From Crocinitomicaceae bacterium (lineage in GTDB: Bacteria; Bacteroidota; Bacteroidia; Flavobacteriales_D; Crocinitomicaceae), in NCBI GenBank assembly GCA_023262855.1, contig JALQYQ010000045.1:53450-117449 (forward strand): a stretch of DNA of 64,000 nucleotides, written 5' to 3'. This document shows positions 43,653 through 55,832 of this stretch, piece after piece (position 1 is the stretch's first letter; each line of letters begins with the position of its first letter). The translations under genes and the position numbers were made by a program. Under the pieces are notes generated by a model that saw only the letters and a list, made by a program, of their open reading frames with translations, was not told where the DNA came from and did no database searches.

Positions 43653-44264
43653 TTATTTCACTTTGAATTCATACATTTTAGTTCCTTCTAAATATCCCTC
43701 TAATACATCTCCAATTTGAACAGGTCCAACTCCAGCAGGCGTTCCAGTGAAAATTAAATCACCTTTTTTCAAGGTCATGAATTGTGAAATATATGCAATG
43801 ATTTGATCGATTGTAAAAAGCATATCCGATGTATGTCCAATTTGCGCTGTTTCTTGATTCTTTTTTAGTTCAAAAGATAATTTCGTTAAGTCTAAATTGG
43901 CAACTGGAATAAATTGTTGTGAAATAGGGGCACTTTGTTCGAATGATTTTGCAATTTCCCACGGCAATCCTTTTTCTTTGCATTGTTGTTGTAAATCACG
44001 CGCAGTAAAATCAATTCCTAATGTCACATCTGAATAGTATTTGTGTGCAAATTTTTCAGAAATGTTTTTTCCAACCTTATCGATTCTAACAACTAGCTCA
44101 CATTCATAATGCAGATCTTTTGTAAAGTCGGGGAAATAAAAATCATATCCATCACGTAAAATAGCGGTGTCTGGTTTCATGAAAAATACTGGAGCACTAG
44201 GGACTTCAGCTTTCATTTCTTTTGCATGATCTGCATAATTTCTGCCAATACAAATGATTTTCAT
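43653..44264 (-). CDS. Fumarylacetoacetate hydrolase-family protein
   Basis: A 203-residue FAH-family enzyme. It opens MKIICIGRNYADHAKEM, with the metal-binding HYECELVV and GIDFTARD segments and the late FTGTPAGVGPVQIGD motif. Short members like this act on 2-oxo acids such as oxaloacetate or acylpyruvates; the exact substrate is unknown. It starts one base after the DnaQ-like gene stop, so the two are an operon. Confidence 0.93.
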   Translation of the reverse strand: MKIICIGRNYADHAKEMKAEVPSAPVFFMKPDTAILRDGYDFYFPDFTKDLHYECELVVRIDKVGKNISEKFAHKYYSDVTLGIDFTARDLQQQCKEKGLPWEIAKSFEQSAPISQQFIPVANLDLTKLSFELKKNQETAQIGHTSDMLFTIDQIIAYISQFMTLKKGDLIFTGTPAGVGPVQIGDVLEGYLEGTKMYEFKVK

Positions 44265-44265
44265 T

Positions 44266-45111
44266 TTATTTAAATTTATTCTTTAATGCTTCTAATTTAC
44301 TTGCAATATCCGTTTCCTTTGATTCTTTGGCTTTTTCTCTTTCCGATTTAATTTTATCCATTTCACGGCGCAAACATTGCTTTGTATATAAAGGAAAATC
44401 GGCATCAAGCATCCAACCATAATAACCAGGCTCAATTTGAGCAACTTGCTTAATTGTACGTCCTTTGTGCTTACCAAAGTTATAGATTGCTTCACCTTTG
44501 TCATCAATTGCTAAACGACCAGCGAAATCCAATAAATTGTAATTGCCTGCTTTTGAAAATTCAGATAGGTAAATCACATCATTCTTAATGTCAGGATATC
44601 GCTCAATCTGTGCTTTTAAGACGTCCCACGTTGCTTTCGCATCATACAAGGCATTATGAGCGTTTTCAATCGTTTTGTTGCAGTAGAATAGATAAGCTGC
44701 TGCCAACGTGCGTTGTTCCATTTTGTGAAAAATGTTCTGAACATCCACGAATCTTCTTTTTGATATATCGAAATCAGATCCAGCACGCATTAACTCTTCA
44801 GCAAGAACAGGAATATCGAATTTGTTAGAGTTGTAACCAGCTAAATCGGCATCGCCAATGAATGCAACAATTTCGTTTGCTAACTCTTTAAAAGTAGGAG
44901 CATCTTGAATGTCTTTGTCATAAATTCCATGTATTTCACTAACAACAGCAGGAATTGGCATTTCTGGATTAACGCGTTTGCAGTAATTTTCTTCTGTACC
45001 ATCCGGTTGAACTTTGATAATGGCAATTTCAACAATTCGATCACTTGTAATATTTGTACCGGTTGTTTCCAAGTCAAATATGGCAAGCGGTCTTTCTAGA
45101 CTTAAATTCAT
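44266..45111 (-). CDS. DEDDh 3'-5' exonuclease (DnaQ-like)
   Basis: A 281-residue exonuclease with motifs I AIFDLETTGTN, II GYNSNKFDIPVL and III HNALYDAKATWDV (DEDDh set complete). The C-terminal ~100 residues contain GRLAIDDKGEAIYNFGKHKGRTIKQV, a small extra domain seen in several Bacteroidetes homologues. The ORF track extends to 45177, but a promoter box at 45133-45126 makes the ATG at 45111 (MNLSLERPLAIFDLE) the start. It may act as Pol III proofreading subunit or RNase T-like enzyme. Confidence 0.92.
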   Translation of the reverse strand: MNLSLERPLAIFDLETTGTNITSDRIVEIAIIKVQPDGTEENYCKRVNPEMPIPAVVSEIHGIYDKDIQDAPTFKELANEIVAFIGDADLAGYNSNKFDIPVLAEELMRAGSDFDISKRRFVDVQNIFHKMEQRTLAAAYLFYCNKTIENAHNALYDAKATWDVLKAQIERYPDIKNDVIYLSEFSKAGNYNLLDFAGRLAIDDKGEAIYNFGKHKGRTIKQVAQIEPGYYGWMLDADFPLYTKQCLRREMDKIKSEREKAKESKETDIASKLEALKNKFK

Positions 45112-45125
45112 ACAGAAGTTTTTGT

Positions 45126-45133
45126 CAAAGATA
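45126..45133 (-). promoter_or_regulatory. -7 promoter box of the dnaQ-like gene
   Basis: Minus-strand TATCTTTG, exact TAnnTTTG; predicted leader about 11 bases. Confidence 0.6.
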
Positions 45134-45148
45134 ATGAAGTAAAAAACA

Positions 45149-45174
45149 AAAAGTCCGAACAATGCCGGACTTTT
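45149..45174 (-). terminator. Terminator T1 of the PorE-like array
   Basis: Nine-bp stem AAAAGTCCG / CGGACTTTT, 8-base loop; minus-strand T run follows. Shares the AAGTCCG stem with T2 and T3. Confidence 0.88.
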
Positions 45175-45193
45175 CATTTTATGTTGATAATTC

Positions 45194-47290
45194 TTATTCA
45201 GTTTTCAAACCAACGAATTGGTAAGGACGATATTTTTTCGTGTTTCTTCCATCTTTCACATATTCTGGACCATCAACGATTGCAGAAACAATCACCACGT
45301 TTACACGATCTTTAAACTCCGGAATCGACTCAAAATAAGTTTGTAAGTCATATTTCATATTCTCCGCACGAATTTGTGTCAATTTCTCATTTGTTTCGTA
45401 CGTTTTTGTTGGTACGTGTGATGCAGAAGAGTAAACTTTAATTGTAATTGATTTACGTCCTTCTTTTAATTGCGCTTCAACTTGTTTTACAAAATCTTTC
45501 AAATCACCTTTTGAAGTCGATAATTTGTTTTTGTTGTAATCGAAGTAGTGCATGTACTCAAGATTTTTGTAGGCAATTACATTTACTGTGTCAATCAAAG
45601 TAACTGTATCTTTCGGTACTGAAATAGTTCGTGTAGGAACATCTAACATCAATTCACGATAAATTTCTTGATAAGCTTCATCACAATTGGTTGTAAATGA
45701 TTCTTCGTACATCGTTAAGTTGTCGCTTGCATTGTAATAGGCGATTTTATATGTTTTACAAGGTTTTAATCCAGTCATGAACAAACCATCTCTCAAACGT
45801 GGATAAATTGTTTTGTTTTTTTCATATTCTTCACAATCATCACAAGTCAACTTCACATTGATCGCGAAATCCTCTGGTAATTCAGATCCATCCGTTGTTT
45901 TGATTTTACCTTTAAAGACAGCAATGTTGTTTACGCCTAAGAAGTCATTGTGAATTTCATAAATGTCTTTTTCTCCATGACCGTCTTTTCTGAATGAAGT
46001 CATGTATCCTCTTAAACCATCAATTGTTGTTGTATAGAAAATATCATCATTCGTTGAGTTGAACGGATAACCGATGTTTTTAGATTCAGACCAATTTCCG
46101 TCTTCCAATAAATCACAAACAAGGATGTCAAATCCACCAATACTTTTATCGCCATTCGAAGAGAAATACAATTTTTTATTGTCTACAGAAACGAAAGGAG
46201 CATCTTCATCATATGCAGTATTTACACGTGGTCCAAGGTTGATCGGATTTGACCAAGTACTGTCACCTTTGCGTTTAGACATGTAAATGTCACGTCCACC
46301 AAAACCACCTGGACGATCTGAAACAAAGAACATTCTTGAACGGTCAGGAGAAACCATGCAATGTGTTTCCCAGTATTTTGTGTTGATATCCTTGTCGTCA
46401 ACTAATTGAATATCATTGAATTTTCTTCCATAGAAATCAGTGTAGTAAATATCTCCAGATCCGGTAGAGTCTTCGTATAAATAAATTCTACGTTCGTCAG
46501 TACTAACAGCAATTGTTGCTTCATTTCTTTCAGGTTGACAAAATTCTAAACGAATTGGAGCCATCCAAGTAGAATCATAATCCATATATGAGACATAAAC
46601 ATCCTCAGGATATTGATTAATCGCTGGATCACGGAAGGTTTCTGTTGCACCGTTTTCCCATGGTCTTCTTGAAGTAAAATAAAGTGACGATCCATCCAAG
46701 GATACAACTGGTGCATAATCAGGGAATTGGCCATTTACAGTTCCGCCAATGTTCTTTAAATAGACATTCACTGGTGCAGCCATCAATTGTTTGGCCTGTT
46801 CACATTGAATTAAACGTAATTTGGCAACGGGAATTAATTCCGATTTATTTTTTGTTGTCGCTAAAAACTTTTCATAGTTCGCTTTTGCGCCATCGATATT
46901 TTCATTTAAGTGATAGCAAGTTGCTAAGTGGAAATATGCATCGGCAGGAGCACTTTTTTCACCAACACCATACATGTCATAGTTCGCATCAACATCTTTA
47001 ACAGCTTTTTCGAAATAAGGAATGGCATTTTCATACTCTTTTCGAATTTCTAGCATTAAATAACCTTTGCGGTAATTGTAATTCGAACTTTCTGGTTTTA
47101 TTGTCAGAAGTTTATCAGCCAACATTTCTGCATGATACAAATAACCTTCTTGTGTCATACGAGAGCTCTCAGTAACCAATTGTTGTTCTGAACCATTTTG
47201 AACAATGTTCAATACTTGTTCATCAGTCAATTGGGCATGAACGAAAACTGGAAGTAAAAAAATGAAGCTAAGTAATTTTATTATTCTCAT
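45194..47290 (-). CDS. PorE-like protein, array copy D, diverged OmpA domain
   Basis: A 698-residue exported protein (signal peptide MRIIKLLSFIFLLPVFVHA, no lipobox). TPR-like region ~20-180, propeller ~185-460 (VSPDRSRMFFVSDRPGGFGGRDIYMS), then a four-cysteine segment (TCDDCEEY ... PCKTYKI ... TNCDEAYQ). The C-terminal ~120 residues are OmpA-like (FDYNKNKLSTSKGDLKDF) but the HTD motif is replaced by SAS, so the Asp that binds diaminopimelate is gone; the Arg (TQIRAEN) stays. The CPD-like domain of copies A and B is missing. Very similar to copy C. Confidence 0.88.
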   Translation of the reverse strand: MRIIKLLSFIFLLPVFVHAQLTDEQVLNIVQNGSEQQLVTESSRMTQEGYLYHAEMLADKLLTIKPESSNYNYRKGYLMLEIRKEYENAIPYFEKAVKDVDANYDMYGVGEKSAPADAYFHLATCYHLNENIDGAKANYEKFLATTKNKSELIPVAKLRLIQCEQAKQLMAAPVNVYLKNIGGTVNGQFPDYAPVVSLDGSSLYFTSRRPWENGATETFRDPAINQYPEDVYVSYMDYDSTWMAPIRLEFCQPERNEATIAVSTDERRIYLYEDSTGSGDIYYTDFYGRKFNDIQLVDDKDINTKYWETHCMVSPDRSRMFFVSDRPGGFGGRDIYMSKRKGDSTWSNPINLGPRVNTAYDEDAPFVSVDNKKLYFSSNGDKSIGGFDILVCDLLEDGNWSESKNIGYPFNSTNDDIFYTTTIDGLRGYMTSFRKDGHGEKDIYEIHNDFLGVNNIAVFKGKIKTTDGSELPEDFAINVKLTCDDCEEYEKNKTIYPRLRDGLFMTGLKPCKTYKIAYYNASDNLTMYEESFTTNCDEAYQEIYRELMLDVPTRTISVPKDTVTLIDTVNVIAYKNLEYMHYFDYNKNKLSTSKGDLKDFVKQVEAQLKEGRKSITIKVYSSASHVPTKTYETNEKLTQIRAENMKYDLQTYFESIPEFKDRVNVVIVSAIVDGPEYVKDGRNTKKYRPYQFVGLKTE

Positions 47291-47378
47291 AGTAGAGTGG
47301 TTTAAATAAACTAAAACTTAATTAATTGAAGGTAAACGACAAATAATGTAAATAGTTTCGTTTACCAAAAATAAAAAA

Positions 47379-47401
47379 AAGTCCGAATAAATTTCGGACT
47401 T
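47379..47401 (-). terminator. Terminator T2 of the PorE-like array
   Basis: Perfect 9-bp stem AAGTCCGAA / TTCGGACTT with 5-base loop; minus-strand T8 run follows. Lies after copy C. Confidence 0.88.
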
Positions 47402-47427
47402 CTCTTTTTGAATTGATTAACTATTCA

Positions 47428-49527
47428 TTATTCTGTTTTCAAACCAACAAATTGATATGGTTTGTATTTCGATTTGTTTTTAGCATCATTCGTGTATTCA
47501 GGCCCATCAACTATTGCAGTAACAATCACAACATTTACTTTTCCTTTGTAAAGTGGATTAGATTCGAAATAGCTTTGTAAGTCATATTTCATGTTTTCAG
47601 CACGGATTAATGCCAATTTTTCATTTGATTCATAATCTTTTGTTGGTACACGTGAAGCAGATGAATAAACATTGATAGTTACGGATTTGCGGCCTTCTGA
47701 CAATTGTTTTTCAACATCTTTTACAAATAGTTTTAGTTCACCTTTTGCAGTACTTAACTTGTTTTTATTATAGTCGAAATAATGCATGAATTCGATGTTT
47801 TTATAGGCAATAACCGTAATTGTATCAATTTCTTTAACGGTATCTTTAGGAACAGAAATTGTTCTTGTTGGCACATCTAACAACAATTCTCTATAGATTT
47901 CTTGATATGCTTCATCACATTTAGTCGTAAATACTTCTTCGTACATTGTTTGGTTATCAGTTGCGTTGAAGTAAGTAATTCTGTATGTTTTACAAGGTTG
48001 AATACCTGTCATAAACATTCCATCTCTTAAACGTGGAAATAAAATTTTCGATTTTTCACTTTCAGAACATTCGTCACATGATAATTTAAAATTCATCGCG
48101 AAATCCTCTGGAAGTGTCGAGCCATCGGTTGTTTTGATTACACCTTTGAAAACAGCAAGATTTTTAACACCTAAGAAATCATTTTTGATTTCATAAATAT
48201 CTTTTTCTCCATTTCCTCCTGGTCTGAATGATGTTACATATCCTCTCAATCCATCTACAGTTGTGGTATAATAGATGTCGTCGTAAGTCGAATTGAATGG
48301 ATAACCAACATTTGTAGGATCACTCCAAATTCCATTTTCCTGCATGCTTGAGACAAGAATATCAAAACCACCTATACTTTTTTCTCCATTCGAAGCAAAG
48401 TACAATTGTTTGTTATCAATGCTTAAGAATGGAGCATCTTCATCATTTTTTGTGTTGATATTAGGTCCAAGATTAATTGGTGTTCCCCAAGTTCCATCTG
48501 TGTTCTTTTTACACATGTAAATATCTCTGCCTCCAAAACCACCTGGACGATCAGATGAGAAGAAAGCCATTGTTCCGTCCTGAGAAACCATGAAATGTGT
48601 TTCCCAAAATTCAGTATTAATGTTTGTATTATCTAACAAACTTATTGCATTGAATTTACTGGCATAGAAATCTGAGAAGTAGATGTCTCCAGATCCTGTA
48701 ATGTCTTCGTACAAGTAAATTCTTCGTTCATCTGTACTCACGGCCATAGTCGCTTCATTGCGTTGAGCCTCACAAAAATCTAGTCTTTTTGGAGTATTCC
48801 AAGTAGAATCAGACGATAAATAACTTACATAAACATCTTCAGGATAAGCATTTGTTGCTGGGCTTCTTAATAATTCTGTTTCACCATTTTCCCAAGGACG
48901 CTGTGAAGTAAAAAAGATTGCAGAACCGTCTAAAGAAACAACAGGAGAGAACTCTGCATATTGACTATTAAATTTCGTTCCCATATTATTTAAAACGATT
49001 TTTACAGGAGCTTGTTTTAATAATGCAAGTTGATCCAATTGAATTAATCGCAATTGAGCTACTTCAATCAATTCTGATTTTGACCGAGAAGTGTTAATGA
49101 ATTGTTGGTATGTTTCACGTGCTTTAGCAATATTCTCATTCAAATGATAACATTCTGCTAAATGAAACAATGCATCTGTTGGGGCACTTTTCTCATTCGA
49201 GCTATACATGTCAAAATTTGCATCAATTTTAGTGATAGCAACCTCTAAAAATGGAATAGCTTGGTTTGCGTCTTTACGAACCTTTAATACCAAATAACCT
49301 TTACGGTAATTGTAATTTGGACTTGTTGGATTTAATGAAATAAGTTTATCAGCAATCATTTCTGCTTGATAAAAGAAACCATCTTGAATCATTCTTGAAT
49401 TCTCGGTGACAAGTTTTGTTTCAGATCCTGTTTGAATCATTTTTAACACTTGTTCATCCGTTAATTGCCCGAAAAGTAGGGTAGGGCAAAGAAAAAGTAT
49501 ACAAAGAAAAGTACTTTTAAAACTCAT
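47428..49527 (-). CDS. PorE-like protein, array copy C, diverged OmpA domain
   Basis: A 699-residue exported protein (signal peptide MSFKSTFLCILFLCPTLLFG). Same order as copy D: TPR-like ~20-180, propeller ~185-460 (FSSDRPGGFGGRDIYMC, FASNGEKSIGGFDILV), four-cysteine segment (SCDECSES ... PCKTYRI ... TKCDEAYQ) and an OmpA-like end lacking the HTD Asp (NVYSSASRVPTK). Copies C and D are the same length and share the altered C-terminus, so they come from a recent duplication. No perfect -7 box lies before the ATG; terminator T3 separates it from copy B. Confidence 0.88.
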   Translation of the reverse strand: MSFKSTFLCILFLCPTLLFGQLTDEQVLKMIQTGSETKLVTENSRMIQDGFFYQAEMIADKLISLNPTSPNYNYRKGYLVLKVRKDANQAIPFLEVAITKIDANFDMYSSNEKSAPTDALFHLAECYHLNENIAKARETYQQFINTSRSKSELIEVAQLRLIQLDQLALLKQAPVKIVLNNMGTKFNSQYAEFSPVVSLDGSAIFFTSQRPWENGETELLRSPATNAYPEDVYVSYLSSDSTWNTPKRLDFCEAQRNEATMAVSTDERRIYLYEDITGSGDIYFSDFYASKFNAISLLDNTNINTEFWETHFMVSQDGTMAFFSSDRPGGFGGRDIYMCKKNTDGTWGTPINLGPNINTKNDEDAPFLSIDNKQLYFASNGEKSIGGFDILVSSMQENGIWSDPTNVGYPFNSTYDDIYYTTTVDGLRGYVTSFRPGGNGEKDIYEIKNDFLGVKNLAVFKGVIKTTDGSTLPEDFAMNFKLSCDECSESEKSKILFPRLRDGMFMTGIQPCKTYRITYFNATDNQTMYEEVFTTKCDEAYQEIYRELLLDVPTRTISVPKDTVKEIDTITVIAYKNIEFMHYFDYNKNKLSTAKGELKLFVKDVEKQLSEGRKSVTINVYSSASRVPTKDYESNEKLALIRAENMKYDLQSYFESNPLYKGKVNVVIVTAIVDGPEYTNDAKNKSKYKPYQFVGLKTE

Positions 49528-49646: not shown

Positions 49647-52001
49647 TTATTTTTTTACGATTCTAAATTCAGTTCGTCGATTAAGTTGATGCTCTTCAGG
49701 AGAACACGTCGATTCTGTTTCTCCTTCGCATTCACATTTGTTCACTAATTTACTTTCTCCATAACCTTTTCCGTAGATTCTTTCTGGATTCGTAATGCGT
49801 GCTTTGATGTAGTCTGCAGATGCTTTTGCTCGTCGATCAGATAAATCTTCATTGTATTGTGCAGATCCTCTGCAATCTGTGTGAGAACCTAGTTCAATTT
49901 CCATGGTTGGATTGTTGTTCATCACTTTTACAATTTTATCTAATTCACGTTTAGCATCTTTACGAATTGTAGCTTTGTCGAAATCGAAATAGATATTTTT
50001 AATGCCATATAGACTCGCAAGATCAGCTCCAATTTCTGATTTGTTCATATCTACTGTTACTTTGATTTTTTCATCAGCACCTAATTTTTGTGTTAAATCA
50101 TACGTTTGTGTGATGTAATCATCTTTTGAAACTTTCAATTGAATATCCATTGGTTCACCAATAAATCGGTTTGTCAACGGTTTCATTTTGAAGTTTCCAT
50201 TTGCATCAGCATACAGAGTCTCAATTACTTTGTTCGTTCTCAAATCAATTACTTCAATTTTAGAATTAGGAAGGATAGCTTTCGTTTCCTTATCAGCAAC
50301 AATTCCGTTAACAATGTAATTTTTAACTGGAGTAATTGTTTCTTTTTTAGCATTTAGAATAACCTCCTTCGTAATTTCTTGGTACTGGTCAGTGCACTCT
50401 GTTTTGAATTCCTCTTCATACATGTTCACTTTGTCATTCGCATTTACGTATGCCAAAGTATATGTTTTACAAGGCTGAAGATTCGTAATAAATACACCAT
50501 CTTTCAATCTTGGGTAAATCGTTCTTGTTGTAGCCTCATCTGTACAATCTTTGCATTTAAGCGTCATTGCAACTGGGAAATCTTCAGGTAATGGCGAGTT
50601 GTCGTAGTTTCGAATCAATCCTTTTAAAACTGCTAAACTTTTGACTCCAAGAAAATCATTGTTTACTTCGTAAATGTCTTTTTCACCATATCCGTCTCCT
50701 CTGAACGAAGTTAAATAACCTCTTAGTCCATCAATAGTTGTTGTGTAGTAAATGTCATCATTCGTTGAGTTAAATGGATAACCCAAATTACGCGATTCTG
50801 ACCAGGTTCCATTGTCCAATAAATCTGCTGTTAAAATGTCGAAACCACCGATACTTTTTTCACCGTTAGAAGAGAAGTATAACATTTTATTGTCAACAGA
50901 TACGAACGGAGCATCTTCATCAAATGCCGTATTAATTTTGTCACCTAAATTGATCGGCTCTGACCATGTTGTATCTCCCGTTTTTTTGATGACATACAAG
51001 TCGCGTCCTCCAAATCCACCTGGACGATCTGATGAGAAAAAGATGCGAGAACCGTCATGACTCATCATACAATGTGTTTCCCAAAATTCAGAGTTTAATC
51101 CTGAAATGTTCAAAGCCTTGATATCATTGAATTTTGCGGCATAGAAATCTGAGTAATAAATGTCTCCTGAACCTGTAGAATCCTCGTACAAATAAACCCT
51201 TCTTTCATCTGAACTCACTGCAATTGTTGCTTCGTTTCGTTTCGGTAAACAGAAATCGAGTTTCATTGCTTCAGTCCAAGAAGAATCATAATCCATGTAA
51301 GAAACATAAACATCTTCTGGATATTGATTGATTGCTGGATCACGGAAGTTTTCTGTAGAATTGTTTTCCCACGGCCTTCTTGATGTAAAATACAAAGCTG
51401 ATCCATCCAATGAAATGACAGGAGAATAATCTGGATAGTTAGTATTTACAGATTTTCCAAGATTTTTTAAAGCGACGTTAATTGGAGCGGCGATTGCTTT
51501 TTTAGCGTTTTCACATTGCGCAATTCTTAACTTTGCCAGCGTAATTGTCTCTGATTTACCGTTTGAGTTGGTAAGAAATAAATTATAATACTCAATCGCT
51601 TTTTCCATGTTACCGCTTAGTTGATAAGCATTACCTAAATGGTAAAAAGCATCTGCTGGAGCACTTTGTTCTTTCACACTAAACGCATCGTAATGTGGCT
51701 TTGTATCCTTAATTGCTTTGGTTAAAAAAGGAATTGCTGTTTGATAATCCTTTCTGATTTCTAATGCTAAAAATCCTTTACGATAATTGTAGTTTGGACT
51801 TTCTGGTTGAAACGTCAACAATTTATCTGCAATCATTTCAGCTTGAAAAAAACTTCCTTCAGCCATCATTCGTGAGTTTTCACTCAATAATTTATCCTCA
51901 TCCGAATTTTTAATTAATTCTTTTACTTGATCATCAGTCAATTGTGAAAAAGAAGTGAACGATGCCAAAAGGGCAAAAAAGATTATTAAACGTGGTTTCA
52001 T
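49647..52001 (-). CDS. PorE-like protein, array copy B, complete architecture
   Basis: A 784-residue exported protein (signal peptide MKPRLIIFFALLASFTSFSQ). TPR-like ~20-185, propeller ~190-460 (FFSSDRPGGFGGRDLYVI), four-cysteine segment (KCKDCTDE ... PCKTYTL ... TECTDQYQ), CPD-like domain ~565-645 (NGIVADKETKAILPNSKIEV), and a normal OmpA domain ~660-784 (IELGSHTDCRGS, SDRRAKASADYI, GKGYGESKLV) with extra cysteines (NKCECEGE). It is the closest relative of copy A and keeps the peptidoglycan-binding residues. Own promoter box 46 bases upstream. Confidence 0.9.
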   Translation of the reverse strand: MKPRLIIFFALLASFTSFSQLTDDQVKELIKNSDEDKLLSENSRMMAEGSFFQAEMIADKLLTFQPESPNYNYRKGFLALEIRKDYQTAIPFLTKAIKDTKPHYDAFSVKEQSAPADAFYHLGNAYQLSGNMEKAIEYYNLFLTNSNGKSETITLAKLRIAQCENAKKAIAAPINVALKNLGKSVNTNYPDYSPVISLDGSALYFTSRRPWENNSTENFRDPAINQYPEDVYVSYMDYDSSWTEAMKLDFCLPKRNEATIAVSSDERRVYLYEDSTGSGDIYYSDFYAAKFNDIKALNISGLNSEFWETHCMMSHDGSRIFFSSDRPGGFGGRDLYVIKKTGDTTWSEPINLGDKINTAFDEDAPFVSVDNKMLYFSSNGEKSIGGFDILTADLLDNGTWSESRNLGYPFNSTNDDIYYTTTIDGLRGYLTSFRGDGYGEKDIYEVNNDFLGVKSLAVLKGLIRNYDNSPLPEDFPVAMTLKCKDCTDEATTRTIYPRLKDGVFITNLQPCKTYTLAYVNANDKVNMYEEEFKTECTDQYQEITKEVILNAKKETITPVKNYIVNGIVADKETKAILPNSKIEVIDLRTNKVIETLYADANGNFKMKPLTNRFIGEPMDIQLKVSKDDYITQTYDLTQKLGADEKIKVTVDMNKSEIGADLASLYGIKNIYFDFDKATIRKDAKRELDKIVKVMNNNPTMEIELGSHTDCRGSAQYNEDLSDRRAKASADYIKARITNPERIYGKGYGESKLVNKCECEGETESTCSPEEHQLNRRTEFRIVKK

Positions 52002-52057: not shown

Positions 52058-54403
52058 TTAATTTTTTACAATACGAAATTCGGTACGACGATTTGCCTGA
52101 TGCTCTTCTTCTGAACATGAAGAATTTACTGTTCCTTCACAACCACAATCGTTGACCAATTTCGATTCTCCGTATCCCTTTCCATAAATTCGAATAGGAT
52201 CTTTTATTCGTGCTTTAATATATTCGGCGGATGCTTTTGCTCGTCGATCTGAAAGCGATAAATTGTATTTCATCGAAGCACGACAATCTGTATGAGAACC
52301 TAATTCAATTACTAAAGTTGGATTGTCGTTCATGATTTTTACAATTTTATCCAATTCTATTTTAGCATCTGGACGAATTGCTGATTTATCCAAGTCAAAA
52401 TAAATAGGCTTTAAATCCAATGTTTTAGCTAAATCAATTCCAATTTCAGGTTTTTCTAACATGTAGTTTAAATGAATGGCTGTATCCGCACCAAGTGTTG
52501 TCATTAAATCGAAAGTTTGTGTCATGTAACCTTCTTTTGATACACGTACATGGAAGTAGATGCTATCGCCAAACCTTTTATCCTCTAAAATAGTTGAATA
52601 AAACTCTCCTAATTTCGCAGTGGAAGTCATCTCATAGATTTCCTGAGATACTGGATTCATAAATTCAACTTTTGAACCTTCTAATTTATTTCCTGATTTT
52701 TTGTCTGCAACTAATCCGTCTAACGAATAACGCTTGATTGGAATGATTCTGCGTTTTTCTACGTCCAAAATAACTTCCTTGTATACTTCCTCATAACCTT
52801 TGCTACATGCTGTCACGAATGTTTCCTTGTAGGAAGTTTTCGACAGAGAATCGTATTTGAATGCAATTTCATATGAACGACAAGGTATTAATGAATATAC
52901 AAAAGAACCATCTCTTAAACGTGGAGACAAGTTGTATTCACGTGAGTCGTCGCAATTCGTGCATTTGATTGTTGCATAGACAGATTCCGGTAATTTACTT
53001 CCATCAGATGTTAGAATTCTTCCTTTTAAAACAGCAACATTATTAACAAGCAAAAAGTCATTTTCAATTTGGTAAATGTCCTTTTCTCCGAAACCATTTT
53101 TTCTAAAGGATGAAAGATAACCGTAATGTCCGTCAGCAGTTGTTGTATAATAAATATCGTCTCCAGTTGAGTTTATAGGATATCCTAAATTCACAGAGTT
53201 TGACCAAACATTGTTCTCGTCGCGGATCGAAACGAAAATGTCGAATCCTCCCATGCTATTTGGTCCATTACTTGAAAAGTAAAGTGTTTTATTATCTACA
53301 GCAATAAACGGTGAATCTTCGTCATAAGGTGAATTGATGACAGGTCCAAGATTAATTGGTTCACTCCATTGTCCATTCGGTAATTTCACTGTTCTGTAAA
53401 TATCTCTGCCACCATAACCGCCAGGACGATCTGAAACAAAATACATGTTTTGACCATCTGGAGTAACAGTACAATGAGTTTCCCAATATTTTGTATTTAA
53501 ATTTTTATAACCTAACAAGGTTAAAGCAGTAAAGTTATTGTTTTGAAAGTCAGAATAATAGATGTCGCCGAATCCTGTTCTATCTTCATAGGTATAGATT
53601 CGTCTTTCGTCTGGACTAATAGTTACAGTAGCTTCATTTAATTTTCCATCACAAAAACTTAAACGTTCAGGTGCTGTCCAATTCGAATTGAGTTCACCGT
53701 AGCTCACGTAAATATCTTCTGGATATTGATTCAGTTGTGGATCTTTAAAATCGTCTGTTGATTGATCTGCCCATTGTCTACGCGATGTAAAGTAAAGCGA
53801 ACTTCCATCGAGAGAAATAACAGGTGAATAGTCCGGATATACGCCATTTACAACATTCCCGATGTTTTTAACAATGGATTTTTTCGGGTTTGCAAGGTTG
53901 AATTTGGCAATATCACATTGTAACAGACGTAATTCAGCATTTTTGATTTGTTCAGACTTGTTACTCGATGAAGCGATGAATTTTGAATAATATTCTTTCG
54001 CTTTATCAATTTGTTCGTCTAAATGATAACAGCGTGCAATGTGATAATAAACATCAGTTGGAGCACTTGTTTCCTTTGACGAATACATATCGAAATTTTT
54101 ATCGACATCGACGAGTGCCTTTTGTAGATAAGGAAGTGCTGTTACCCAATCTTGTCGTGAATCTAAAACAATAAAGCCCTTTCTATAATTATAGTTAGGG
54201 CTTGAAGGATTTATTTGAAGAAGACGATCTACAACAATCTCTGCGAAAAAGAAATAATTTTCTTGCAACATTCTTGAAGATTCAACAACCAACTGCTCTT
54301 CTGGAGCTGTTTGAGTCATTTGTCTTACTTCAAACTCATTTAATTGTGTCATTCCTAAAAATGGCAACAATGTCAATCCGAAGATTGCAAGTATCTTTTT
54401 CAT
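52058..54403 (-). CDS. PorE-like protein, array copy A, complete architecture
   Basis: A 781-residue exported protein (signal peptide MKKILAIFGLTLLPFLGMTQ). TPR-like ~20-180, propeller ~185-455 (FVSDRPGGYGGRDIYRT, FSSNGPNSMGGFDIFV), four-cysteine segment (KCTNCDDS ... PCRSYEI ... TACSKGYE), CPD-like domain ~565-650 (DGLVADKKSGNKLEG) and a normal OmpA domain ~660-781 (IELGSHTDCRAS, SDRRAKASAEYI). First gene of the array in transcription order. It starts 34 bases after the E2 acyltransferase stop; no terminator is visible between them. Confidence 0.9.
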   Translation of the reverse strand: MKKILAIFGLTLLPFLGMTQLNEFEVRQMTQTAPEEQLVVESSRMLQENYFFFAEIVVDRLLQINPSSPNYNYRKGFIVLDSRQDWVTALPYLQKALVDVDKNFDMYSSKETSAPTDVYYHIARCYHLDEQIDKAKEYYSKFIASSSNKSEQIKNAELRLLQCDIAKFNLANPKKSIVKNIGNVVNGVYPDYSPVISLDGSSLYFTSRRQWADQSTDDFKDPQLNQYPEDIYVSYGELNSNWTAPERLSFCDGKLNEATVTISPDERRIYTYEDRTGFGDIYYSDFQNNNFTALTLLGYKNLNTKYWETHCTVTPDGQNMYFVSDRPGGYGGRDIYRTVKLPNGQWSEPINLGPVINSPYDEDSPFIAVDNKTLYFSSNGPNSMGGFDIFVSIRDENNVWSNSVNLGYPINSTGDDIYYTTTADGHYGYLSSFRKNGFGEKDIYQIENDFLLVNNVAVLKGRILTSDGSKLPESVYATIKCTNCDDSREYNLSPRLRDGSFVYSLIPCRSYEIAFKYDSLSKTSYKETFVTACSKGYEEVYKEVILDVEKRRIIPIKRYSLDGLVADKKSGNKLEGSKVEFMNPVSQEIYEMTSTAKLGEFYSTILEDKRFGDSIYFHVRVSKEGYMTQTFDLMTTLGADTAIHLNYMLEKPEIGIDLAKTLDLKPIYFDLDKSAIRPDAKIELDKIVKIMNDNPTLVIELGSHTDCRASMKYNLSLSDRRAKASAEYIKARIKDPIRIYGKGYGESKLVNDCGCEGTVNSSCSEEEHQANRRTEFRIVKN

Positions 54404-54437: not shown

Positions 54438-55832
54438 TTATAATTCTCTTTTTGGATCAAATTGTTCTAGATAATCTGCTACTCGTTTCACAAATTGTCC
54501 TCCTAATGAACCATCTACAACACGGTGGTCATATGAGTGAGAAAGGAACATTTTGTGACGAATTCCAATGAAATCACCATGTGGAGTTTCGATAACCGCA
54601 GGAACTTTTCGAATTGCACCTAAAGCTAATATTGCCACTTGTGGTTGATTGATGATTGGAGTTCCCATAACGTTTCCAAATGATCCAACATTCGTTACTG
54701 TAAATGTACCACCTTGAATGTCTTCAGGTTTTAATTTGTTGTTACGCGCATTGTTCGCTAATTCATTCACTGATTTGGTTAAACCAGTTAAGTTCATGCG
54801 ATCCGCATTTTTGATTACAGGAACAATTAAATTTCCAGAAGGTAAGGCAGTTGCCATACCGATATTGATATCTTTACGCTTAACGATAGATGTTCCGCTA
54901 ACAGATACATTGATCATTGGGAAGTCTTTAATTGCTTTTACAATTGCTTCGATAATGATTGGTGTAAATGTGATGTTTTCACCTTCGCGTTTCGCAAATT
55001 CACCTTTAATTTTATTTCTCCAGTTTACAATTTCAGTAACATCTGCTTCAACGTAAGAAGTTACGTGAGGAGCAACGTGCACAGACATAACCATGTGTTC
55101 CGCGATGATTTTACGCATGCGATCCATTTCAATGATTTCGTCTCCTGGATTTGGAACTACAACTGGGCCTTTAATATTCGCCAAGAATCCATTGTTCTCT
55201 GCTGGAATTGCAGCAGGGGCAGCAGTTGTTGACGTTATTACCGGTGAACCACTAGCTGTAGTTGCAGCAACTGTTGTAGTAGATGCAGCTGGTGCAGCAG
55301 CAGGAGCTGAAGTACGATTGTCAACGTAATCTAAAATATCTTTTTTCGTAACTCTTCCACCTTGTCCTGAACCAGCCAACGTTTCAAGTTCACCCATTGA
55401 AATTCCTTCTTTCTCAGCAATGCTTCGTACTAGAGGAGAATAGAATTTACCTGAAGGTCCGTTTTTGTCAATTAATTCAGAGCTTCCGTTCACGCTTGCA
55501 ACAACTTCTTGTACATTGTTAGCGATGGTTGTTGCAGCAGCAGCTGGACTTGGAGCACTATCTGCTGCAGGGGCAGGAGCAGCGCCACTTCCATCCGTTG
55601 AAATAATAGCGATTACGTCACCAACTTGAGCAACTTGGTCCACTTCAAAGAAACGTTGAACCAACACACCACCAGCTTCTGATGGCAATTCGTTATCAAC
55701 TTTATCAGTAGCAACTTCAACTAAAGGCTCATCAATTTCAACTGAATCACCAATGTTTTTCAACCAATTTGTAATCGTTGCTTCTGTAACGCTTTCTCCC
55801 ATTTTCGGAAGTCTAATTTCAATCTGTGCCAT
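54438..55832 (-). CDS. Dihydrolipoamide acyltransferase (E2 of a 2-oxo acid dehydrogenase complex)
   Basis: A 464-residue E2 subunit. N-terminal lipoyl domain with the modified Lys in VATDKVDNE; a long Ala/Pro-rich linker; a peripheral E1/E3-binding domain (SPLVRSIAEKEGIS ... GRVTKKDIL) and the catalytic domain with SYDHRVVDGSLGGQF. Substrate cannot be fixed from sequence: it may be the branched-chain or 2-oxoglutarate complex, and E1/E3 genes are not adjacent. Own promoter box about 33 bases upstream. Confidence 0.92.
   Translation of the reverse strand: MAQIEIRLPKMGESVTEATITNWLKNIGDSVEIDEPLVEVATDKVDNELPSEAGGVLVQRFFEVDQVAQVGDVIAIISTDGSGAAPAPAADSAPSPAAAATTIANNVQEVVASVNGSSELIDKNGPSGKFYSPLVRSIAEKEGISMGELETLAGSGQGGRVTKKDILDYVDNRTSAPAAAPAASTTTVAATTASGSPVITSTTAAPAAIPAENNGFLANIKGPVVVPNPGDEIIEMDRMRKIIAEHMVMSVHVAPHVTSYVEADVTEIVNWRNKIKGEFAKREGENITFTPIIIEAIVKAIKDFPMINVSVSGTSIVKRKDINIGMATALPSGNLIVPVIKNADRMNLTGLTKSVNELANNARNNKLKPEDIQGGTFTVTNVGSFGNVMGTPIINQPQVAILALGAIRKVPAVIETPHGDFIGIRHKMFLSHSYDHRVVDGSLGGQFVKRVADYLEQFDPKREL

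Follow-up and report, generated by a model that had tools for sequence, protein, structure and literature searches.

The question raised by this locus is what an OmpA-like domain does without one of the two residues by which such domains are recognised. In textbooks these domains are peptidoglycan anchors whose hallmark is a single Asp together with a single Arg. In the DNA analysed here (64,000 nucleotides of a Crocinitomicaceae bacterium, contig JALQYQ010000045.1, positions 53,450 to 117,449; hereafter the window), four paralogous genes, which we call A to D, form a co-directional array on the minus strand in the order A, B, D, C between an E2 gene (2-oxoacid dehydrogenase E2) and an exonuclease gene, and in C and D the Asp is a Ser. 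A sequence-only reading of the window took C and D for two recent duplicates that had lost the Asp and a CPD-like domain, leaving a fold with another ligand or only a structural role. We arrive at a rather different picture. Judging from the sequences, C and D are members of an old subfamily of periplasmic scaffolds that resemble PorE, and we find it somewhat easier to believe than to doubt that their tail is an anchor with an altered diaminopimelate (DAP) pocket and a real ligand. The features on which this rests are:

52058..54403, minus strand: copy A, 781 amino acids (aa), canonical TPR-PD40-CPD-OmpA
49647..52001, minus strand: copy B, 784 aa, a chimera with a TPR-propeller of the C/D type and a canonical CPD-OmpA tail
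47428..49527, minus strand: copy D, 699 aa, architecture same as C
45194..47290, minus strand: copy C, 698 aa, with signal peptide, TPR, TolB-like PD40 propeller, beta-sandwich and Ser-type OmpA-like domain
52238..52300, minus strand: canonical motif of A, GSHTDCRASMKYNLSLSDRRA, with Asp706, Asn714 and Arg721
49827..49889, minus strand: canonical motif of B, GSHTDCRGSAQYNEDLSDRRA, with Asp709, Asn717 and Arg724
47599..47667, minus strand: pocket motif of D, YSSASRVPTKDYESNEKLALIRA, with Ser625 at 47653-47655
45365..45433, minus strand: pocket motif of C, YSSASHVPTKTYETNEKLTQIRA, with Ser624 at 45419-45421, Asn634, Leu637 and Arg641

Each of the four proteins starts with a signal peptide, followed by a TPR region and then by a PD40 propeller. 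In A and B there follow a CPD-like segment (about aa 556-650 in A and 559-652 in B), which is absent from C and D, and then a Pfam OmpA domain (47-61 bits). The canonical tails read GSHTDC...YN..LS..RRA, with Asp706/709, Tyr713/716, Asn714/717, Leu717/720 and Arg721/724 in A/B, while C and D read YSSAS[HR]VPTK.Y..NEKL..IRA, with Ser624/625, Asn634/635, Leu637/638 and Arg641/642. An hhalign comparison of 83 Ser-type with 34 canonical domains (96% probability, E=5e-9) aligns the Ser with the canonical Asp and matches Asn, Leu and Arg to the canonical Asn, Leu/Ile and Arg, and a profile search of solved structures gives the same register against PDB entry 9v99 (Ser on Asp, then Asn, Leu and Arg); in these profile alignments the C/D loop is two residues longer than the canonical one. 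The replacement of Asp with retention of Arg, as proposed from the sequence, is thus borne out by the comparison of the four tails and by two independent profile alignments, and the coordinates and reading frames were right. Throughout the canonical set the Asp is invariant.

What that proposal had missed is that the rest of the pocket is kept as well. In the complex of PorE with peptidoglycan, side-chain contacts are made by Asp576, Asn584 and Arg591, a hydrophobic wall is formed by Phe541, Tyr583 and Ile587, and several contacts to DAP are made through main-chain amides (PMC7192894). Every peptidoglycan-contact side chain, including Asp, Asn and Arg, is present in A and B. In the C/D type Asn and Arg are present and Asp is replaced by Ser in 100% of the sequences. 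Residues Ser624, Asn634, Leu637, Arg641 and Tyr585 of C map to PorE Asp576, Asn584, Ile587, Arg591 and Phe541; of the PorE-equivalent contacts C/D retain Tyr585, Tyr631, Asn634, Leu637 and Arg641, so that the Asp alone is changed. To the retained Arg one must therefore add the Asn, itself a DAP ligand, and the hydrophobic residues.

Is this a pocket in decay? Among 103 Ser-type domains, all less than 70% identical to one another, Ser624, Arg641 and Gly674 are conserved in 100%, Asn634 and Leu637 in 99%, Gln691 in 98% and Tyr585 in 96%, where mean column identity across the domain is about 49%. The constancy of the Ser is far greater than chance would give. When the 118 positions are ranked by conservation, five of the six that are equivalent to pocket residues come in the top ten (hypergeometric p=8e-6), which argues that the pocket has been maintained and not decayed. 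For the same reason we disfavour a structural role only; the alternative offered with it, an altered ligand, is somewhat favoured. The domain (SASxVPT...N..L...R) occurs in about 28 of the families sampled over the order and the class: its profile matches 175 of 299 genomes of the order (E<=0.001, some of these matches being weak) and 100 of 345 genomes of the class, in 44 of 178 genera (E<=1e-8). The sparse phylum sample, which outside the order gave no more than weak partial matches, had suggested confinement to one order, and the class sample overturned this. The distribution is patchy, many sampled Bacteroidia families being without the domain. On these sequences the Ser-type domain is an ancient, strictly conserved variant across Bacteroidia, and its wide distribution and invariant Ser rule out a recent degeneration in C and D. 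A literature search for an Asp-less OmpA-like subfamily returned nothing relevant.

That we are dealing with an OmpA-like fold at all needs some justification, as full-length C and D have no match to the Pfam OmpA model at E<=1. The isolated C domain scores 21.4 bits against PF00691, below the gathering cutoff of 27.2 bits, and 54 of the 83 Ser-type members match it at E<=0.1 (best 2.4e-6). An AlphaFold2 model of the domain, built with 83 homologues, has a pLDDT of 97.6 and a pTM of 0.89, and a Foldseek search with it returns OmpA-like PDB entries at a probability of about 1.0 and TM scores of 0.5-0.6, among them the DAP-bound Acinetobacter baumannii OmpA (3td4/3td5), Pal (1oap), PorE (6top) and MotB-type domains. 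The C-terminal domain of C and D is accordingly modelled as an OmpA-like fold. No direct solved homologue of C was found by sequence. In the model of full-length C (pLDDT 90.4, pTM 0.75) a poorly ordered linker (aa 563-571) precedes the OmpA-like domain, and TolB is the structure most similar to the chain as a whole (E 3e-10). The parts are:

46778..47224, minus strand: TPR region of C, aa 23-171
45947..46765, minus strand: TolB-like PD40 beta-propeller of C, aa 176-448
45641..45925, minus strand: beta-sandwich after the propeller of C, aa 456-550, a segment common to all four paralogues and without a Pfam match
45197..45565, minus strand: Ser-type OmpA-like domain of C, aa 576-698 (pLDDT as above)
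47431..47799, minus strand: Ser-type OmpA-like domain of D, aa 577-699

The supposed loss of the CPD-like domain is hence half right: the segment specific to A and B is indeed absent from C and D, but another beta-sandwich follows the propeller in all four proteins, as judged for C from the model and for the other three from their sequences. Near the end of C, aa 672-691 (45218-45277) carry a nearly invariant pattern, VxGPxYxxDxxxxxxYxxYQ[FY], with no evident canonical counterpart. It includes D680, conserved in 88-92% and the sole near-invariant acid noted in the Ser-type domain. As a substitute for the lost Asp it is a weak candidate, since the pocket of PorE is formed by alpha2 together with the beta1-alpha1 and beta2-alpha2 regions.

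The array lies in a syntenic slot with these flanks:

54438..55832, minus strand: 2-oxoacid dehydrogenase E2, upstream flank
44266..45177, minus strand: exonuclease (RNase_T/ExoX-like), downstream flank
43653..44264, minus strand: fumarylacetoacetate-hydrolase-family (FAH) gene, next gene downstream in the syntenic block

The order E2, array, exonuclease, FAH is seen in most loci that we read; among the loci analysed, which had been selected for having a Ser-type gene, E2 is present in 101, the exonuclease in 87 and FAH in 73. The C/D-type gene is the usual, constant occupant of the slot, and canonical OmpA copies come and go. In several families the C/D-type gene stands alone; in others it is accompanied by a canonical OmpA gene, by a PorE-like gene of about 520 aa in which neither tail type was detected, or by both. 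Taishania pollutisoli, a culturable relative, has a pair made up of a canonical and a C/D-type gene (L072). Such PorE-like proteins of about 510-560 aa, with neither a Ser-type nor a canonical OmpA domain detected, are frequent between the Ser-type gene and the exonuclease (loci L100, L101, L104, L105, L107, L114, L120-L122 and others). Two canonical and two Ser-type copies, as in the window, are found in one relative (G002/L051). In some genomes of the same genus (L055:10126-12207, L056, L074) a second, fast-evolving Ser-type copy on a long branch adjoins the normal one, and it is an independent duplication.

Copy B joins parts of both types. Its propeller is 75% identical to that of C and 60% identical to that of A, its tail is A-like, and the crossover can be followed along the protein. 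In trees of the TPR-propeller part, the halves of A and B sit beside or inside the C/D-type tree, B is nested among the Ser-type proteins with support 100/100, and a single clade of canonical-tailed proteins is rejected by the approximately unbiased (AU) test (p=0.0006; p=0.00075 without odd rows). A and B as one lineage are thereby rejected for this half. From these sequences B is a chimera or gene-conversion product that joins a C/D-type TPR-propeller to an A-type CPD-OmpA tail. We deliberately looked into the slot of relatives without a Ser-type gene. Five hold one canonical-tailed protein with the same scaffold in the same slot, in two of which the canonical tail directly follows the sandwich without a CPD; one has a tail-less protein there, and in at least five E2 adjoins the exonuclease. 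Supported branches require at least five changes of the Ser-type label. The variation in tails thus reflects, on sequence grounds, exchange of C-terminal modules between the Ser-type and the Asp-type, for which gene conversion between neighbouring genes is an equally good name. The tree alone gives no direction; judged by taxonomic breadth and synteny, the Ser-type is more likely to have held this locus first.

A further clue to function comes from shorter relatives. In about nine Crocinitomicaceae-type loci (L085:1-9431, L142:7060-14400, L143, L146, L082, L148, L083, L086 and L081) a protein of about 505 aa, with propeller and Ser-type domain and no TPR, is encoded directly after a PorP/SprF-family gene, which in several of them is preceded by a gene with a type-B sorting domain; in these last the order is a TIGR04131 adhesin, a TIGR03519 PorP/SprF protein and, as the third gene, the Ser-type protein. 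The 505-aa protein of L085 matches PF13573 (SprB-repeat), and that of L142 falls just under the cutoff. C and D themselves have no PorP/SprF gene and no gene with a type B C-terminal domain adjacent. In Porphyromonas gingivalis PorP is bound by PorE, which links it to peptidoglycan, and itself binds the type B protein; Flavobacterium johnsoniae has six porP-like genes next to porE-like ones (PMC9143113). In the type-B-adhesin/PorP-SprF operons the Ser-type domain thus holds the position of a wall anchor. The source genome has the type IX secretion system (T9SS), with SprA and 128 sorting tails, and 26 matches to the OmpA domain, of which 17 lie in open frames longer than 500 aa; its set of putative wall binders is large.

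Could C and D simply be PorE? With PorE (PG1058 of P. gingivalis; NF052230) the array has in common the T9SS context and, in A and B, the order TPR, PD40 propeller, CPD-like and OmpA_C-like domain as well as the Asp, Asn and Arg. C and D differ by the Ser, the two extra loop residues, the lack of a CPD adjoining the OmpA-like domain, a diverged C-terminal half and a type I signal peptide where PorE is a lipoprotein (judged by eye, no signal peptide of A to D has Cys at its cleavage site). Of the PorE order C/D have the TPR and the propeller; the sandwich is seen only in the model and is not CPD by Pfam, and the OmpA-like domain is of the Ser-type. Against NF052230 C/D score about 147 bits and A/B 246-249 bits, where the cutoff is 600, and this rules out C/D as PorE; a better candidate, at 422 bits the best of the genome and also below the cutoff, lies elsewhere (G000:C22:17855-19900, L210). 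The CHU_0125 family of Cytophaga hutchinsonii (NF053607; PMC5891637) shares the TPR-PD40-OmpA scaffold, but its OmpA domain is canonical, and C/D score 156-162 and A/B 307-314 bits against its cutoff of 620. The long-loop OmpA-like domains of TssL (TIGR03350) and MotB are matched weakly by 39 of 83 and 14 of 83 Ser-type domains, respectively (in the second case one MotB family), and also have a Pro in the loop three residues past the Asp/Ser position; however, the aligned solved MotB has Asp there, and C/D lack the inner-membrane helix. As to TolB-Pal, the propeller of C is closest to TolB and its C-terminal domain is close to Pal, both in one chain, but C/D have no sequence-level membership and the canonical NRR-type motif has become Y..YQ[FY]V.

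How, then, might the pocket work? We picture C and D as a scaffold of TPR, TolB-like propeller and beta-sandwich whose OmpA-like tail has a constitutive Ser for Asp in a pocket otherwise fixed. The Arg would grip a carboxylate and the Asn a polar group beside it; without the carboxylate of Asp the pocket would no longer favour a free ammonium group. The putative ligand would be DAP whose side-chain amine has lost its charge, as it does when acylated in a cross-link, or some other envelope ligand with a carboxylate. To this the Ser-type tail would attach the scaffold along with its partner in the outer membrane, while A and B would be scaffolds with an ordinary DAP-binding tail. Of the candidate ligands, DAP in such an altered chemical state or another carboxylate would suit the pocket best, with a protein as the chief competitor. 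Several points weigh against this picture. In the PorE complex it is the Asp that touches the DAP amine, and this residue is also conserved in the further OmpA complexes cited (PMC7192894), so a domain without it might no longer bind the wall; the second half of the Ser-type domain has diverged and has invariants of its own (G674, P675, Y677, D680, Q691), which could mark a protein interface; and Crocinitomicaceae-type loci were the only ones in which an adhesin/PorP operon was seen to include a Ser-type domain.

The interface just mentioned leads to the suggestion that the domain is a protein-binding module, whose conserved face docks on the TolB-like propeller of its own or a neighbouring protein, or on the carboxy terminus of an outer-membrane protein, much as Pal docks on TolB. 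The propeller of C, closest in fold to TolB structures that include TolB solved with Pal, speaks for it, as do the private invariants of the C-terminal half; yet the equivalents of the stem-peptide contacts are themselves among the invariant residues, the same scaffold can carry a canonical tail in Crocinitomicaceae, which suggests related roles, and packing of the tail on the propeller is unsupported by a model of this pTM with a low-confidence linker. We hold it to be doubtful, while deserving serious attention. Retention of all other pocket residues would suit an ordinary, weaker peptidoglycan binder, in which Asn, Arg and the backbone suffice, several PorE contacts being of the main-chain kind (PMC7192894), and Ser donates a hydrogen bond for Asp. 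But 103 non-redundant sequences without a single Asp argue for selection of Ser over mere tolerance, and the canonical set never gives its Asp up; in our opinion this explanation is unlikely. As for the original idea of a recent loss of Asp and CPD in two duplicates with a structural remnant left, C and D are indeed paralogues with tails 77% identical. An ancient, invariant Ser in some 28 families, a C/D-type gene that is the constant gene of its slot, tails that are exchanged, and the strongest constraint on precisely the pocket residues leave that history with hardly any credibility.

We return to an anchor with an altered pocket. A bolder form of it, that the Ser-type makes up another class of OmpA-like wall anchors beside the canonical one and has a specificity of its own, for acylated-amine DAP of cross-linked stems or another carboxylate ligand, and that Bacteroidia tether T9SS- and adhesin-associated scaffolds to different wall states by swapping tails, is speculative and, in our estimate, rather improbable as a whole. 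Still, the class-wide replacement of an invariant Asp in a pocket otherwise fixed, in a conserved locus as well as in adhesin-secretion operons, points to a ligand specificity in the Bacteroidota envelope that has gone unrecognised. Canonical and Ser-type tails, paired on the same scaffold, offer a natural comparison, and PorE homologues annotated as peptidoglycan-binding may not all bind peptidoglycan.

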